Below, piece by piece: positions 31,958 to 40,529 of a stretch of DNA of 64,000 bases. The translations under genes were made by a program, and so were the position numbers. The DNA comes from Thermoleophilia bacterium (lineage in GTDB: Bacteria; Actinomycetota; Thermoleophilia; Miltoncostaeales; Miltoncostaeaceae): contig JAGQUM010000049.1 in NCBI GenBank assembly GCA_020438485.1, forward strand, positions 1-64,000. Reading direction: 5' to 3'. Numbering within the stretch: the stretch's first letter is position 1; each line of letters begins with the position of its first letter. A model generated the notes under the pieces. The model ran no database searches. It saw nothing but the letters and a program-made list of their open reading frames with translations, and was not told the DNA's origin.

Positions 31958-32383
31958 CTACACCGCCTCGCCCGGGCGCTCGCGCCGGGCGACGGTGCCC
32001 AGGATGCCGTTCACGAACCCCGGCGCGTCCGCGCCGCAGTACGTCTTGGCGGCCTGCACGGCCTCGGCGATGGCCACGGCAACCGGCGTCTCGGGGTAGT
32101 CGAGCAGCTCGTGCACGGCGACGCGCAGGATGTTGCGCTCGAGCGGGGCGATGCGGTCGACGGTCCACCCCTCGGCGGCGGCCTGGATGAGGCCGTCGAT
32201 GTGGTCGCGGTCGACGGCGACGCCGTCCACCAGGGCGTGCGTGAACTCGTGGGGTTCGCCGGCGTCGCGACGCAGGTTGTCCTGCAGCTCGTCCATCCCG
32301 AGGCCCGTGACGTCGGTCTGGTACAGCAGGAACACCGCCTGCGTGCGTGCCGCCCGGCGGCCCGTGGACGCGGCGGGGACCAT
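31958..32383 (-). CDS. nusB: Transcription antitermination factor NusB
   Basis: The protein has 141 residues from ATG 32383, whose first base overlaps the accC stop (TGATG). The all-helical NusB fold is supported by RRAARTQAVFLLYQTDVTG at the N-terminus, ILRVAVHELLDYPETPVAVAIAEAVQAAKTY (in parts), and the closing FVNGILGTVARRE. With NusE it binds boxA RNA in antitermination complexes. It lies directly after accC and upstream of the TfoX-like gene. Confidence 0.95.
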   Translation of the reverse strand: MVPAASTGRRAARTQAVFLLYQTDVTGLGMDELQDNLRRDAGEPHEFTHALVDGVAVDRDHIDGLIQAAAEGWTVDRIAPLERNILRVAVHELLDYPETPVAVAIAEAVQAAKTYCGADAPGFVNGILGTVARRERPGEAV

Positions 32384-33760: not shown

Positions 33761-35503
33761 TCACGACGGCTCGATGAGGAACAGCAGCTGCCCGAACTCC
33801 ACGCCCTCGGAGTTCTGCACCGCGATCTCGCGCACGACGCCGTCGCACGGGGACGTGATCTCGTTGAACAGCTTCATCGCCTCGATGAGACACAGCACCT
33901 GCCCCTTCGCCACCTTGCGGCCCACGTCCGTGAACGGCTCGGCATCCGGCGAGGAAGCCCGGTAGAACGTGCCCACCATGATGCTCTCGACGCGGGTCAT
34001 GCCATCGGCGGCGCCCGCCGCGGAGGACGCCCCGGGAGCCCCGGGAACGGGGGCGGCCGACGGGGCGGCGCGACGCACCGTGACGCGCGCGCCACCGACC
34101 TCCACCGACACCTCGGCCTCGTCGCTTCCCTCGACGGCCTGGATGAGCGTCTCGAGGAGCGCCCGGTCGATCGTGGCGCCCTCGGAGTCGTCCACCTCGG
34201 CCCGCAGGCTCAGGCGCCGCGCGCGCAGCCGCTCGGTGGCCTCCGGGAACTGCGCCATCAGGACGCGGTCCTCGTCGGCCATCTCGGCCGCGTCGCCCAG
34301 CCCGGCGACCTCGCTGGGGATGGTGTCCGCGTAATCGACGCCGGCCGCGGCGCGCGCCACCTCCTCGCTGACGTCGCCGCGCGTGGGGCCGTACACCCCG
34401 GCCGCGGCGGCGGCCAGCGCCGGCTGGACGTGGGTCCACCGCTCGCCGTTGATGACGTGCTCGGACGCCTGCGCCACCAGCGCGTCGCCCAGCGGGAACG
34501 CGAACGTCACGTTGCCCAGCTCGGCCGCGACCCGCGCGGCCTCGTCGGCCACATCGGACAGCAGGGGCGACATCCCGACGCGGCTGAGGCGGCTCATGAG
34601 GCCCACCTCGAGGTCCGGGGGGATGGACACGGCCGAGCCGAACACGGCGGCGGACCCCTGCGACAGGCGGTCGGCGGTCAGCATCCCGGCGACGATGCGC
34701 GCCGCATCGGCGATGGCGCCGGGATCGCATTCCAGCTCGCGGCCTGTGCCGAGCAGCGCCGCGCGCACGGTCTCGACGGACGGCCGGGCGCCCACGAGCG
34801 CGGCGGAGCCGACCGCCGTGTGCACCACGGACGCACCGGCCGAGATCGCCGACGCGCCGAGCAAAGGCGCGAGGCCACCGGGCGCCTGGATCAGCATCTC
34901 CACGGGTAGCGACGCGGCGGCCACGACGGCCTGGACCAGCGCCACGAGGTTCGTGGGCGACAGGTGCCCCCCGCCGTCCGAGATGCACACGGCGCTCGCG
35001 CCCGGCAACGCGGCCAGCGCCGCGGCCTCATCGGCCCAACGGCGGTCGCCCGGGCCGGGGGCGGGCCCCGCCACGAGCGTCGGGACGAACTCGATGCCGG
35101 CGCCCTGGCACGCGGCGGCCAGTGCCTGCATGTGGCCCGCGTTGTTGAGGGGATCGAGGGACCGCACCCGCCGGACGCCGTTCTCGGCGGCGCACATCAC
35201 GAACCGGGTGGCAACCTCGTCCGTGACCGGCCTGTCGCTCCACAGCAGGCGGCCGTGCACGACGACGCCGACCGGCGTGGCTCCCGCATTGCGCACCACG
35301 GCGCGCACGCGGTCCCACGGGCTCTCGGTGCGCAGCTCCAGCACGGCGCGGGCGACGCGGGGGTCCACCACCTCCAGCGCGCGGGCGCCCGTCCGGGCCA
35401 GGGACGCCGTCGCCAGCGCGACGTCATCCGCCGCGATCCCCGACCCCCACGGGTACGTGGTGAGGTCGCGCAGCGTGGTGTCGACGAAACCGACGGTGTT
35501 CAC
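33761..35503 (-). CDS. Carboxyltransferase-like domain (catalytic residues lost) fused to biotin carboxyl carrier protein
   Basis: The protein has 580 residues; GTG 35503 has GGGAG eight bases upstream. Residues 1 to about 400 align by motif with the pyruvate carboxylase / oxaloacetate decarboxylase carboxyltransferase barrel: FVDTTLRD, VMCAAENGVRRVRSLDPLN and VVHTAVGSAALVG. Yet the carbamylated-Lys motif KDMAG reads SDGGG (about 175-179), the metal-binding HxH of HTHATTG reads IQAPGG (about 205-210), and the Gln after DTTxRD is missing. The rest ends in an AccB domain: a Val/Ala/Pro linker and the biotinylation site IEAMKLFNE (Lys about 544). It may be a scaffold or AccB-specific N-terminal extension rather than an active transferase. 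The gene is followed by accC. Confidence 0.85.
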   Translation of the reverse strand: MNTVGFVDTTLRDLTTYPWGSGIAADDVALATASLARTGARALEVVDPRVARAVLELRTESPWDRVRAVVRNAGATPVGVVVHGRLLWSDRPVTDEVATRFVMCAAENGVRRVRSLDPLNNAGHMQALAAACQGAGIEFVPTLVAGPAPGPGDRRWADEAAALAALPGASAVCISDGGGHLSPTNLVALVQAVVAAASLPVEMLIQAPGGLAPLLGASAISAGASVVHTAVGSAALVGARPSVETVRAALLGTGRELECDPGAIADAARIVAGMLTADRLSQGSAAVFGSAVSIPPDLEVGLMSRLSRVGMSPLLSDVADEAARVAAELGNVTFAFPLGDALVAQASEHVINGERWTHVQPALAAAAAGVYGPTRGDVSEEVARAAAGVDYADTIPSEVAGLGDAAEMADEDRVLMAQFPEATERLRARRLSLRAEVDDSEGATIDRALLETLIQAVEGSDEAEVSVEVGGARVTVRRAAPSAAPVPGAPGASSAAGAADGMTRVESIMVGTFYRASSPDAEPFTDVGRKVAKGQVLCLIEAMKLFNEITSPCDGVVREIAVQNSEGVEFGQLLFLIEPS

Positions 35504-35534: not shown

Positions 35535-36095
35535 TCATACGCGGGCGCTGTACTCGCGGGTGCGGGTGTCGATCTTGATGCGGTCGCCCTCGTTGATGAA
35601 CAGGGGCACCTGGACTGTCGCGCCGGTCTCCACCTCGGCGGGCTTCATCACGTTGGACACGGTGTCGCCCTTGGCGCCCGGGTCCGTGCGGGTGACGGTG
35701 ACCTCGACGAACGTGGGCAGCTCCACGCGGAACGGCGCGTCCCGCACGAACAGCACCTGCACCTCGCTGTTGGGCGCCAGCAGGTCCTGCCCCTCGACGG
35801 AGTCGGCCGGCACCTCGACCTGCTCGTACGTCTCGTTGTCCATCAGCACCAGGTTGGCGCCGTCCGAGTAGAGGAACTGCATGTCCTTGGTGTTGGTGAG
35901 CACACGCTCCAGCTTCTCTCCGGCCCGGAACGTCTTGTCGACGACGTTGCCCGCCGCCATGTTCTTGAGCTTCGTGCGCACGAACGCCCCGCCCTTGCCG
36001 GGCTTGACGTGCTGAAAGCTGACCACCGACCAGAGGGATCCCTCCAGGTCGATCACCCAGCCGTTCTTCAGGTCGTTGGTGCTGATAGTCGGCAT
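35535..36095 (-). CDS. efp: Elongation factor P
   Basis: EF-P relieves ribosome stalling at polyproline stretches. The protein has 186 residues with three beta-barrel domains in family order. The tip loop HVKPGKGGAFVRTKL places the candidate modified Lys at about 34. Also seen are NVMKPAEVETGATVQVP and FINEGDRIKIDTRTREY near the end. GGGGAG precedes the ATG by five bases. It lies ten bases after the M24 peptidase gene, a common arrangement in bacteria (pepQ-efp). It would help translate the Pro-rich linker of the secreted glycosidase-like protein. Confidence 0.97.
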   Translation of the reverse strand: MPTISTNDLKNGWVIDLEGSLWSVVSFQHVKPGKGGAFVRTKLKNMAAGNVVDKTFRAGEKLERVLTNTKDMQFLYSDGANLVLMDNETYEQVEVPADSVEGQDLLAPNSEVQVLFVRDAPFRVELPTFVEVTVTRTDPGAKGDTVSNVMKPAEVETGATVQVPLFINEGDRIKIDTRTREYSARV

Positions 36096-36105
36096 GCGTC
36101 TCCCC

Positions 36106-37200
36106 TCACGTGTCGAGCTCTGCGATCGGCGTGCGCGAGATCACCTCGGCCCCGTCGTCCGTGACGAGCACCAGGTCCTCGATGCGGACGCCGCCGATCC
36201 CCTCCAGATAGATGCCGGGCTCGATGGTGACGGCCATCCCGGCCCGCACCTCCCCCCGCACGTTCCTGCCCAGCCGGGGCGCCTCGTGGATCTCGATGCC
36301 CACGCCGTGACCCAGCCCGTGACCGAACTGGTCACCGAAGCCCGCCTCCGTGATGATGTCACGCGCCACGGCGTCGAGCTCGCCGCACGCGACGCCGGGC
36401 CGCACGGCCGCCACGGCCGCGCGCTGCGCGCGCAGGCACACGGAGTAGATCTCCCGCAGCGCGGCGGGCGGGTCGCCGACCGGCACGGTGCGCGTCATGT
36501 CCGAACAGTAGCCGCCGTGGATGGCACCCATGTCGATGACCACGAGCGTGTCGTCGGGGATGACGTCGCCCGACGGCACGGCGTGCGGCCGCGCCCCGTT
36601 GGCGCCCGCGGCCACGATGCAGTCGAAGCTCGGTGCCTCCGCGCCCTCGTGGCGCAGCGCGGTCACGATGTCCCACGCCACGTCCCGCTCGGTGCGGCCC
36701 ACCAGGCCCCTCTCGAGCACCCGCGCGAGCGCCGCGTCGGCGATGGCGGCCGACTCGCGCAGCAGGCGGGCCTCGCCCTCGTCCTTGACCGCGCGGACGT
36801 CCTCCACGATGCCCGTCTGAGCCGACAGCGTCCGCGCCCCGGCGTCGGCCAGCCGGGTCCGCAGCCCGTCGGCCCGCGCCAGCGTGATGTGGTCGGCCTC
36901 CACCGCGACGACGGCCCCGTCGGGCGTCGCCTCGGACACCACCTCCACCAGCCGCGGGGTGGCGTCGAGCGCCGTGATCACCACGCGCGTTCCTGCGTCG
37001 ACGGCTTCCCGCGCGGCCACGCCATAGCGGGCGTCGGTCAGCAGCGTCGTGCTGGCGGGGCTCACCACCAGAGTGCCGTTGGAGCCCACGAACCCGGTCA
37101 GGTAACGGATGCTGGGCAGGTGGGTCACGATCAGCGCCGCGACGTCGCGCCGGACCAGTTCCTCGACGACCCGCGCCCGGCGGTCGGCGCGCCCGCTCAT
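36106..37200 (-). CDS. pepQ: M24-family Xaa-Pro aminopeptidase/dipeptidase
   Basis: The protein has 364 residues from ATG 37200, which overlaps the aroQ stop (ATGA). The N-terminal creatinase-like domain (HLPSIRYLTGFVGSNGTL) precedes the pita-bread catalytic domain. The metal ligands are in order: Asp in VIDMGAIHGG, Asp in YCSDMTRT, His in GHGLGHGVGIEIHE, Glu in VTIEPGIYL and Glu in GGVRIEDLV. Such enzymes cut the bond next to proline in peptides in the cytoplasm. The gene precedes efp by ten bases. Aminopeptidase versus dipeptidase specificity is not decided by the sequence alone. Confidence 0.93.
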   Translation of the reverse strand: MSGRADRRARVVEELVRRDVAALIVTHLPSIRYLTGFVGSNGTLVVSPASTTLLTDARYGVAAREAVDAGTRVVITALDATPRLVEVVSEATPDGAVVAVEADHITLARADGLRTRLADAGARTLSAQTGIVEDVRAVKDEGEARLLRESAAIADAALARVLERGLVGRTERDVAWDIVTALRHEGAEAPSFDCIVAAGANGARPHAVPSGDVIPDDTLVVIDMGAIHGGYCSDMTRTVPVGDPPAALREIYSVCLRAQRAAVAAVRPGVACGELDAVARDIITEAGFGDQFGHGLGHGVGIEIHEAPRLGRNVRGEVRAGMAVTIEPGIYLEGIGGVRIEDLVLVTDDGAEVISRTPIAELDT

Positions 37201-37661
37201 CGGGCACCCGCCAGCATGTCGAGCGCGTCGCGGTACCCGTCGACTCCCTTCCCCCACACCGACCCCGCCGCGATGTCGCGGATGACCGACACGCCGCGGT
37301 GCGGCTCGGCCTTGGCGCGCTCCTCCACGTCGCTCAGGTGGACCTCCACGAACGGAACCCCCAGGATCTCCAGCGCGTCACGGATGGACCACTGGTAGTG
37401 GGTCCACGCGCCCGGGTTGACGATGGCGCCGTCCACGATGCCCGCCAGGCCGTGGACGTGCTGCACGAACGCGCCCTCGTGGTCGGTCTGGAAGCAGCCC
37501 AGCCGCATCCCGCGCTCGTGCGCCCATCCGCGCACCGTGCGCTCCAGCTCCGCGAGCGTCAGGGTGCCGTAGTGCTGCGCTGGACGATGTCCAAGACGGT
37601 CCAGGTTGGGGCCGTGGAGCAGCGCGATGCGGGGTGCGTCGGCGGGCAGTCCGGTGGTCAC
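37197..37661 (-). CDS. aroQ: Type II 3-dehydroquinate dehydratase
   Basis: This dodecameric enzyme dehydrates 3-dehydroquinate in the shikimate pathway. The protein has 154 residues from GTG 37661, which overlaps the aroB stop (GTGA). Motifs are IALLHGPNLDRLGHRPAQHYG (in parts: LLHGPNLDRLG then HYG, with the catalytic Tyr), CFQTDHEGAFVQHVH, IVNPGAWTHYQWSIRDAL (catalytic His region) and VEVHLSDVEERAKAE. It lies between aroB and pepQ with four-base overlaps on both sides. Confidence 0.96.
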   Translation of the reverse strand: MTTGLPADAPRIALLHGPNLDRLGHRPAQHYGTLTLAELERTVRGWAHERGMRLGCFQTDHEGAFVQHVHGLAGIVDGAIVNPGAWTHYQWSIRDALEILGVPFVEVHLSDVEERAKAEPHRGVSVIRDIAAGSVWGKGVDGYRDALDMLAGAR

Positions 37662-38749
37662 GCGCGCAACTCCTCGATGGCGTCCACGACGGCGGCGTGC
37701 GGGGGATTCTGCCTGAGCGCCACGGCGCCGGGGGCGTCGAGCAGCACCATGTTGAGCGCCGCCGCGTCCGCCTTCTTGTCGCGCCCCATGGCCGCGAGGA
37801 CGTCGTCGGTGGCGATGGCGGCGTCCAGCCGGGTGGGCAGGCCGTGACGTTCGAGCACGGCCCTCGTGCGCTCGCGCCACTCGGGGTCGAGCCCGCGCCC
37901 GGTCTCGCTGAGGCGCAGCGCGGCCAGCATCCCCAGGCTGATGGCCTCACCGTGGGTGTGGTGACGGTAGCCGCCCGCGGCTTCGATGCCGTGGCCGACG
38001 GTGTGCCCGAGGTTGAGGCTGGCCCGCAGGCCGCCCTCGTGCTCGTCCTGGGTGACCACGCGCAGCTTGTGGGCCGCGCAGTCGGCGACGAGCTCGGCCA
38101 GGGCGCCGGGGTCCCCGGGCAGCGCGGGCCACTCCTCGACGCGGTCCCACAGCCCACCGCCCTCCAGCAGGCCGTACTTCACCACCTCGGCGAATCCGCA
38201 GGCCAGCTCGCGGGCGGGCAGCGTGGCCAGCGCGTCGAGGTCCTCCACCACCAGGCGGGGCTGCCACACGGCGCCCACGTAGTTCTTACCCTCCGGCAGG
38301 TCGATGGCGGTCTTGCCGCCGATGGCCGAGTCGACCATGGCCAGCAGCGTCGTGGGCACCTGCACGAGGCGCACGCCGCGCTGGTAGCTGGCGGCCACGA
38401 AGCCGGCCAGGTCCCCCACGACGCCGCCCCCGACGGCCACGACGGTGTCGGTGCGCCGAATGCCCTCGCGCGCCGCCAGGCGGGTGAGGCGCTCCAGCTC
38501 GGCAAAGCACTTCGACGGCTCGCCGGGCGGCACGGACGCGCTCACCACCCGCAGGCCGGCGTCCTTCAGAGAGCGGGCCACGCCCCCCGCCAGGGGGGCG
38601 ACGTTCGCGTCGTGGATCAGCAGCGCCGCGGCGCCCCCCGCCTCGGGGGCCCACAGCGCACCGACGCGGGCGACGCCGCCCCGCCCGATGACCACACGCA
38701 CGTCCACGGCGCCGATGCGCGCCTCCAGCACCCGGTCCGCGGCGCTCAC
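37658..38749 (-). CDS. aroB: 3-dehydroquinate synthase
   Basis: The protein has 363 residues from GTG 38749, which overlaps the aroK stop (GTGA). The NAD-binding domain has VVAVGGGVVGDLAGFVAA and the metal/substrate domain has QVPTTLLAMVDSAIGGKTA, NYVGAVWQP, GFAEVVKYGLL, NLGHTVGHGIEA (metal-binding His) and HGEAISLGM. The enzyme makes 3-dehydroquinate from DAHP, the second shikimate step. It lies in the aroC-aroK-aroB-aroQ unit. Confidence 0.97.
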   Translation of the reverse strand: MSAADRVLEARIGAVDVRVVIGRGGVARVGALWAPEAGGAAALLIHDANVAPLAGGVARSLKDAGLRVVSASVPPGEPSKCFAELERLTRLAAREGIRRTDTVVAVGGGVVGDLAGFVAASYQRGVRLVQVPTTLLAMVDSAIGGKTAIDLPEGKNYVGAVWQPRLVVEDLDALATLPARELACGFAEVVKYGLLEGGGLWDRVEEWPALPGDPGALAELVADCAAHKLRVVTQDEHEGGLRASLNLGHTVGHGIEAAGGYRHHTHGEAISLGMLAALRLSETGRGLDPEWRERTRAVLERHGLPTRLDAAIATDDVLAAMGRDKKADAAALNMVLLDAPGAVALRQNPPHAAVVDAIEELRA

Positions 38750-39249
38750 CCCCGGCCCCGCCACCACGCCGCCACGTCCCGCGCCACGGCCTCCTGGTCG
38801 GGGGCCGTGGCGTCCACCGTCAGGTCGGCCAGACCCTCGTACAGCGCGGCGCGGCGGGCGAAGCGGCGGTTGAAGCGGGCCTCGTCCGTGGCCAGTGGAC
38901 GCCCCGACCCGCTGACGCGGGCCCACAGCACCGCGGGGTCGGCCTCCAGGTACACGACGTCGGCGACCCGCCCCAGGAGGTTGCGGGTCTTCTCGCTTTC
39001 CACCGCCCCGCCGCCGATGCTCAGCACCCCCTGCGGCTCGCGGGCGACGAGGTCCCGGATGACCCGTTCCTCCATGCGCCGGAACCACAGCTCGCCCTTC
39101 GTGGCGAAGATCCGCGGGATGGGCAGGCCGGCCTGCTGCTCGATGAGCGCATCGGAGTCGGCGAACTCCGCGCCGGCGGCGTCCGCGATCATCCGGCCAC
39201 CGGTGCTCTTGCCGGCCCCCATGTAGCCCGTCAGCACGAGCCAGCTCAC
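38746..39249 (-). CDS. aroK: Shikimate kinase
   Basis: The protein has 167 residues. The P-loop VLTGYMGAGKSTGG is at about residues 5-17. The shikimate-binding motifs are FADSDALIEQ (Asp), ELWFRRMEE, and VLSIGGGAVES; the lid has SGRPLATDEARFNRRFARRA. It starts with GTG overlapping the aroC stop by four bases. It phosphorylates shikimate between the steps of the neighbouring aro genes. Confidence 0.96.
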   Translation of the reverse strand: MSWLVLTGYMGAGKSTGGRMIADAAGAEFADSDALIEQQAGLPIPRIFATKGELWFRRMEERVIRDLVAREPQGVLSIGGGAVESEKTRNLLGRVADVVYLEADPAVLWARVSGSGRPLATDEARFNRRFARRAALYEGLADLTVDATAPDQEAVARDVAAWWRGRG

Positions 39250-40406
39250 GCGCCGAGCCCCTCCGTGTAACGCCGTACAGCAGATTGCAGCTCGTCAAGC
39301 GAGTCGCCCCCGAACTTCTCGACGAGGGCCTCCGCCAGCACGAACGCGAGCGCGGCCTCCCCCACGACCGCGGCGGCGGGGCTGGCGCAGATGTCGCTGC
39401 GCTCCTTGTGCGCCTTGCGCGGCTCCTTCGTGGCCACGTCGACGGAGGCGAGGGGACGCGAGAGCGTGGAGATGGGCTTCATCGCGGCGCGCACCACGAC
39501 GGGCGCCCCGTGAGTCATGCCGCCCTCCAGGCCGCCGGAGCGGTTGGTGCGCCGGAAGTACCCGCGGCCGGGTTCGTGGTAGATCTCGTCGTGGGCGCGC
39601 GAGCCACGCATGCGGCCCAGCTCGAAGCCCGCTCCGATCTCGACGGCCTTGATGGCCTGGATTCCCATGAACGCCTGGGCGATGCGCCCGTCGAGGCGCC
39701 GGTCGCCGCTGACGTGCGATCCCAGGCCCGGCATGACGCCGAACGCCCACACCTCGAAGATGCCGCCGAGCGTGTCGTGATCCTGGCCCGCGGCCTTGAT
39801 GGCGGCCCGCATGGCGTCGGACGCCGCGGGGTCCAGGCAGCGGACGGGGCTGTCGTCCACGCCGTCGAAGTCGGTGACCGCCAGCTGTGGGCGCTCCGGG
39901 GCCCTCACGTCGCCGATCTCGGTGATGTGGCTACGAACCTCGATGCCGAAGACGCGCAGCAGGGCCTTGGCGACGCCGCCGGCCGCGACGCGGGCGGCGG
40001 TCTCGCGCGCCGACGACCGCTCGAGGATCGGCCGCAGGTCGTCGGTGCCGTACTTCAGCATCCCGGCGAGGTCCGCGTGCCCGGGGCGGGGCAGCGTGAT
40101 GTGCTCCACCTCGGGGTGAGGCTCCCACACCGCCATCCGGTCGGCCTCCCAGTTGGCGAAGTCGCGGTTGGCGATCTCCATCATCAGAGGCGAGCCGATG
40201 GTGCGCCCGTGGCGCAGGCCGGCGCGCACCTCCACGCGGTCGGTCTCGATCTTCATGCGGCCGCCGCGCCCGTAGCCCAGTTGGCGGCGGGCGAGGTCGC
40301 GGTCGATGTCGTCGCGGGTGAGCGGCAGGCCGGCCGGAAGCCCCTCGACGAGGGCGAACAGCGCCGGGCCGTGCGACTCACCGGCGGTGCGGTAGGTCAG
40401 CGTCAC
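39246..40406 (-). CDS. aroC: Chorismate synthase
   Basis: The protein has 386 residues from GTG 40406; the open frame upstream (40 residues) is not family-like. It begins with LTYRTAGESHGPALFALVEGLP, and has RRQLGYGRGGRMKIE, GRTIGSPLMMEI, RPGHADLAGMLKY, RSSARETAARVAAGGVAK and a C-terminal RSDICASPAAAVVGEAALA. The enzyme uses reduced FMN to make chorismate. It is the first gene of the long minus-strand operon. The 123 bases to the chemoreceptor gene must hold the operon promoter. Confidence 0.97.
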   Translation of the reverse strand: MTLTYRTAGESHGPALFALVEGLPAGLPLTRDDIDRDLARRQLGYGRGGRMKIETDRVEVRAGLRHGRTIGSPLMMEIANRDFANWEADRMAVWEPHPEVEHITLPRPGHADLAGMLKYGTDDLRPILERSSARETAARVAAGGVAKALLRVFGIEVRSHITEIGDVRAPERPQLAVTDFDGVDDSPVRCLDPAASDAMRAAIKAAGQDHDTLGGIFEVWAFGVMPGLGSHVSGDRRLDGRIAQAFMGIQAIKAVEIGAGFELGRMRGSRAHDEIYHEPGRGYFRRTNRSGGLEGGMTHGAPVVVRAAMKPISTLSRPLASVDVATKEPRKAHKERSDICASPAAAVVGEAALAFVLAEALVEKFGGDSLDELQSAVRRYTEGLGA

Positions 40407-40529
40407 GACCCCGAACACTAACCGAACGGCGCACGCGGCCACCCCCGTCGCCCTGTTCAAGCCCGCCGCCGCCCGTGCCGATGTCAGGTGGTGCCCTACG
40501 CACGCCCCGAGCGACCAGGAGAACACCCC

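Follow-up and report, generated by a model that had tools for sequence, protein, structure and literature searches.

The window, a stretch of 64,000 nt from the genome of a deep-branching actinobacterium, carries a gene in which a carboxyltransferase (CT) region is joined to a complete AccB. An earlier note on this DNA placed the gene correctly at 33761–35503, and it lies on the minus strand (Table 1); accC does follow, as that note had it, starting just past the end of the fusion gene in the local order efp-[fusion]-accC-nusB. Upstream (36106–40526, minus strand), the order aroC-aroK-aroB-aroQ-peptidase-efp precedes the accBC-nusB cluster, the aro names having been assigned by inspecting translations. 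Across the phylum, nearly every locus that carries the fusion has accC immediately after it, and in many members of the window's own family (f1) the two genes overlap by 4 nt; the gene order at this locus departs from the rule in family f71.

Table 1. Genes of the fusion locus and features of the fusion protein, in positions of the window
Feature	Position	Strand	Remarks
accB-like fusion gene	33761..35503	-	580 aa, GTG start, stop 33761-33763
accC, biotin carboxylase, 452 aa	32383..33741	-	19 nt downstream of fusion
nusB	31958..32383	-	downstream of accC
efp	35535..36095	-	upstream neighbour of fusion
Degenerate (beta/alpha)8 carboxyltransferase barrel, residues ~1-260	34724..35503	-	TMt 0.77-0.80 to 1rqb/2nx9
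D13, retained metal-ligand Asp of LRD motif	35465..35467	-	alignment
T16, replaces conserved active-site Gln after LRD	35456..35458	-	alignment
H83, replaces conserved substrate-binding Arg of LLRGQN	35255..35257	-	alignment
S175, replaces carbamylated Lys of KDMA(G/A)	34979..34981	-	alignment
L204, replaces first metal His of HxH	34892..34894	-	alignment
Q206, replaces second metal His of HxH	34886..34888	-	alignment
C-terminal carboxyltransferase (PYC_OADA-like) helical domain, residues 261-400	34304..34723	-	too diverged for PF02436
AccB N-terminal helix and beta-hairpin, residues 441-478, predicted AccC-binding element	34070..34183	-	
Ala/Pro-rich flexible linker, residues 479-502	33998..34069	-	pLDDT < 50 at 482-498
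Biotinyl domain with AccB-type thumb (RASSPDAEPF), residues 503-580	33764..33997	-	
K544, biotinylation lysine of EAMK	33872..33874	-	invariant in 87 sequences

Architecture of the fusion protein

Residues 2–578 match the PycB family NF006761 (E 4.8e-57) and, with the full chain as query, residues 472–578 match the BCCP family TIGR00531 (E 5.3e-32), both NCBIfam models and both matches below the whole-protein cut-off; the NCBIfam cut-offs of PRK09282 and oadA are missed by the 580-aa protein as well (193.7 against 402 bits and 166 against 756.5 bits). Pfam recognises the biotinyl domain as the only domain, with no CT domain match. AccBs of this kind score as "pyruvate carboxylase subunit B / oxaloacetate decarboxylase", which is a warning for annotation, and misannotated copies could put false anaplerotic reactions into metabolic models.

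Among solved structures the best relatives are V. cholerae OadA (2nx9) and the β subunit of M. flagellatus pyruvate carboxylase (PC; 5ks8), with E. coli AccB for the C-terminus. An AlphaFold2 model of the 580-aa protein (mean pLDDT 91.4) matches 5ks8, 2nx9 and the transcarboxylase 5S subunit, with a TMt of at most 0.80 for CT-only structures. The barrel outline that the earlier note had seen in the N-terminal region, and for which it proposed an overlay on 5S, is predicted as a full barrel with a TMt of 0.77–0.79 to 1rqb. Toward the C-terminus the model places a helix (447–459) and a hairpin (464–477), followed by a disordered linker and the biotinyl domain. The biotin site, likewise described as intact, is present as EAMK with its lysine at 544, and E541 and M543 are as unchanged as K544 across the 87 sequences.

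With PycB (5ks8) and OadA (2nx9) the protein shares the fold, the order CT barrel–helical domain–BCCP and a nearby biotin carboxylase gene, whereas its carrier is of the AccB type with a thumb and its active-site Lys, HxH, Arg, Gln and Thr are lost. With 5S (1rqb) it has the barrel fold in common; in that subunit the metal site is active and a carrier domain is absent. Compared with the AccB of heteromeric bacterial acetyl-CoA carboxylase (ACC; TIGR00531, E. coli 4hr7_B), it has the complete AccB C-terminus (helix/hairpin, linker, thumb and EAMK), an adjoining accC, and accA and accD in the genome, but to a typical AccB of about 150–180 aa it adds about 430 N-terminal residues of carboxyltransferase barrel. 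The central domain of eukaryotic ACC is unrelated to this barrel in fold and origin. The resemblance is that of a large non-catalytic domain within ACC (PMC4833862). BC1 of C. aurantiacus, a fused BC–BCCP (PMC11077971), is similar in that it belongs to a heteromeric ACC, joins the BCCP to a larger partner and has a hairpin important for assembly; its partner is an active biotin carboxylase, whereas that of the fusion would be an inert pyruvate-type CT. AccB and PycB are already known individually, and in the literature searched, the coverage of which was incomplete, no paper was found that describes a complete AccB on a PYC-type transferase or the conversion of such a fusion to a pseudoenzyme.

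Catalytic residues of the barrel

Six catalytic columns were read from an alignment with V. cholerae OadA, and their roles (metal Asp, Gln, Arg, carbamyl-Lys, His and His) are those established for 5S, OadA and PC. The intact-like relatives, that is, the group that remains once the degenerate families are set aside, read DQRKHH at these columns in 74 sequences, with one further, truncated relative reading RKHH. The window protein reads D, T, H, S, L and Q, and the Thr of VTPxSQ is likewise absent from its barrel. The alignment bears out the loss of the carbamyl-Lys (S175), the HxH pair (L204/Q206) and the Gln (T16) claimed in the earlier note, whose account of the metal site holds for both His but overlooked that the metal-ligand Asp, D13 of LRD, is retained. 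This column is Asp in f1 and Leu, Ile or Val in the sister families f6/f7.

Both the carbamyl-Lys and the HxH pair are missing from every f1 member (32 of 32, named public MAGs included) and from all 22 of f6/f7, one of which retains a single His; f2 and f71, families of the same class as the window, have all six catalytic residues. Since the losses are shared by all of the f1 and f6/f7 relatives, they are not sequencing errors. By the standards of pyruvate carboxylase the window barrel is, to judge from its residues, probably catalytically dead.

Could a chimeric assembly or a frameshift have joined a decayed barrel to accB? One relative (G078) does show a frameshift between the two parts, but the same fusion is found in about 100 independent genomes, single-contig ones among them, and its dN/dS, given below, is low; we consider the probability of such an artefact negligible. 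In G078 itself, a single-contig genome, the barrel is read in one frame and the BCCP in another (L152, G078:C1:1748777-1750524; open frames of 557 and 631 aa), which reflects either a sequencing indel or a real split.

The carrier and its distribution

The C-terminal 145 aa alone pass the cut-off of the BCCP equivalog TIGR00531 (117.3 against 115.2 bits); the full chain scores 111.4 bits alone and 116.3 bits with neighbouring pieces in frame. This C-terminal part aligns with E. coli AccB in the thumb and the biotin site, and weakly (11 bits) in the N-terminal AccC-binding segment. The fusion is the sole BCCP-equivalog frame in the window's genome, where contig C61, away from the fusion locus, carries accA next to accD, with fabF and fabG as neighbours (accD scores 304.1 bits against a cut-off of 317.45, from a start codon chosen by the analyst). 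Because the genome has this one AccB, and accA and accD stand beside fabF and fabG, the AccABCD acetyl-CoA carboxylase very probably has the fusion as its BCCP. The earlier note was right to call it an AccB; the acyl-CoA carboxylase to which it assigned the protein gives way, on the same evidence, to the four-subunit acetyl-CoA carboxylase. On contig C80 this genome has a pair of the acyl-CoA-carboxylase type, separate from the fusion. Contig C57 holds an 1859-aa open frame (G000:C57, L230) that may encode a multidomain carboxylase: biotin carboxylase, biotinyl and carboxyl_trans models all match it on one strand.

Sampling 61 genomes of the class, we found 51 with a strong AccA match and 10 without. 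The fusion serves as AccB in 47 of the 51 (45 above the cut-off, plus G078 and G303 with split frames), and AccB above the cut-off occurs in none of the 10, among which G322 has a 117-aa AccB-like frame below it; the co-occurrence of AccA and the fusion has a Fisher p of about 1e-8, computed over genomes that are not independent. Four AccA-bearing f3 genomes are without the fusion. A whole actinobacterial branch thus appears to use an ACC whose carrier is embedded in a pyruvate-type carboxyltransferase. Three f3 genomes that are about 96% complete (G186, G304 and G312) have a strong AccA match but lack both the C-domain of biotin carboxylase and a fused AccB; either genes are missing from them or malonyl-CoA is made without ATP-dependent biotin carboxylation. 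In G186 there is also a transcarboxylase-like operon (12S/5S/1.3S) whose barrel is intact (L148, G186:C60:23000-32000).

The fusion is no isolated oddity: with an intact active site it is widespread in the phylum. Each of the ten f2 genomes has AccA and exactly one domain of the biotin carboxylase type; the BCCP locus and the PYC_OADA domain, both in the fusion, are likewise single. Since a single biotin carboxylase and a single AccB occur there together with both types of transferase, it is simplest to suppose that the pyruvate-type transferase and AccAD share one AccC and one carrier. Where an intact fusion is combined with just one biotin carboxylase, the genomes suggest a shared two-in-one carboxylase, and it is apparently from such a dual-use enzyme that the pseudoenzyme descends.

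In the AccC tree, f1 joins f6/f7 (99%), two degenerate f3 sequences nest among intact f3, and f11 is placed elsewhere, far away. From these placements it follows that catalysis is lost at least three times, namely in the ancestor of f1 and f6/f7, inside f3, and in f11, and this repeated conversion to a pseudoenzyme amounts to a natural experiment in the specialisation of multifunctional enzymes. A single origin of all degenerate barrels was considered and set aside: the barrel tree does cluster them, but f11 and the degenerate f3 sequences sit on long branches, to which the clustering is ascribed, and the AccC tree separates them; forcing the degenerate f3 sequences into the f1+f6/f7 clade gives a p-AU of 0.10 and is not firmly rejected.

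Selection on the barrel and its proposed role

Estimated by the Nei–Gojobori method, dN/dS over the barrel and the C-terminal CT domain is 0.015–0.16 in most close degenerate pairs, saturated pairs being unusable, and the barrel values resemble those of the biotinyl domain and AccC; the pair of the window and L086 gives 0.39 for the barrel at an unusually low dS. Mean entropy in the loops of the active-site face, where intact relatives are best conserved, climbs from 0.22 bits in those relatives to 1.07 in f1 (4.8-fold) and 0.70 in f6/f7 (3.2-fold), while the strands and helices of degenerate barrels change just 1.2–1.3-fold and the AccB N-terminal segment is more conserved in the degenerate groups. 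Families f1 and f6/f7 share the new near-invariant residues L14, P18, R240 and G339; at the barrel mouth, D8, D13, E44, D117, N120 and D176 are held at about 97–100% in f1, which has gained an invariant D47 where f6/f7 have Gly. The inert barrel is retained under purifying selection: the degenerate barrel that the earlier note saw carried by AccB is dead by the criteria of PC and yet, on both dN/dS and entropy, kept by selection.

It is conceivable that the barrel is a neutral leftover of constructive neutral evolution, kept only so that the fused chain can fold, and a loss of catalysis with the core kept is the outcome expected from selection on folding alone. A deletion of the barrel, however, is seen in no degenerate lineage (f1, f6/f7, f3 or f11) despite genomes of 1.2–2 Mb, and the four new near-invariant residues are common to degenerate groups, so that we hold neutral retention to be distinctly unlikely. 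A barrel repurposed for other chemistry, with other (carboxylate) metal ligands, could account for the acidic mouth residues conserved in f1, but it is in the active-site loops that conservation has fallen most, and these loops are not the same in f1 as in f6/f7; a new enzyme is very improbable.

The main rival is an allosteric sensor, in which the dead barrel gates the visits of AccB to AccC and AccAD and still has a small molecule as its ligand, be it pyruvate, oxaloacetate or the biotin/carboxybiotin arm. Such a sensor would fit the strong purifying selection and the acidic and polar residues conserved around the pocket mouth in f1, the invariant D47 included, and in other systems PII proteins regulate ACC through AccB (PMC5437119). 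Nevertheless, the loss of conservation is greatest on the active-site face, the substrate Arg is absent in f1, and f6/f7 are without D13 and have Gly at 47, which leaves no pocket common to the sister groups; a sensing barrel is rather unlikely. Equally doubtful to us is the broader proposal that intact fusions are bifunctional hubs and that the pyruvate transferase became, in at least three resolutions of the conflict between the two uses, a ligand-sensing pseudoenzyme tying fatty-acid synthesis to central-carbon metabolites.

On balance we think it probable that the protein is the AccB of a four-subunit acetyl-CoA carboxylase with an inert former CT, most likely a dimerising scaffold. Of the scaffold or regulatory role suggested in the earlier note, the scaffold seems, from the analysis as a whole, the best remaining reading and is in that measure upheld, with sensing as its rival. 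Going by the identity of the subunits, AccC would carboxylate the biotin on Lys544, and AccAD would move the carboxyl group from biotin-K544 to acetyl-CoA. The N-terminal 400 residues would come from a working pyruvate/oxaloacetate carboxyltransferase of a two-in-one ancestor, in which pyruvate carboxylase and acetyl-CoA carboxylase presumably shared one carrier and one AccC. The CT of this lineage, without its metal site and carbamyl-lysine, would be incapable of carboxyltransferase chemistry. Acetyl-CoA carboxylase commits carbon to fatty-acid synthesis. A tethered active transferase may compete with AccAD for carboxybiotin, and its loss would commit the carrier to that pathway. The dead barrel could then act as a dimerising scaffold that keeps two AccB arms, and via them AccC, in register. 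In two-subunit PC, CT dimers of the β subunit bear the BCCPs and touch the biotin carboxylase via the CT–BCCP linker (PMC5059739), and in the ACC of C. aurantiacus the BCCP β-hairpin drives biotin carboxylase tetramers (PMC11077971).

Replacement by another pyruvate carboxylase was examined as a general cause of the decay and rejected: the window's genome does have an intact single-chain PYC of 1173 aa (contig C51), but most of f1 outside the genera g1, g3 and g199, together with f6/f7, is without another strong PYC_OADA domain. PEP carboxylase likewise gives no general explanation of the losses, being sporadic among degenerate genomes and, in an archaeal-type form, present in the intact f2 family. 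Elsewhere in the phylum the degenerate barrels read differently. The f3 pair nested among intact f3 in the AccC tree (L218 and L221) has DxD in place of HxH and LRS/FRS in place of LRD, a possible sign of changed metal chemistry. In f11 (L137, L138 and L153), whose genomes still have AccA, the degenerate fusion keeps the Lys (KDVES), HxH has become S-x-Y, and the substrate Arg is replaced by Gly.
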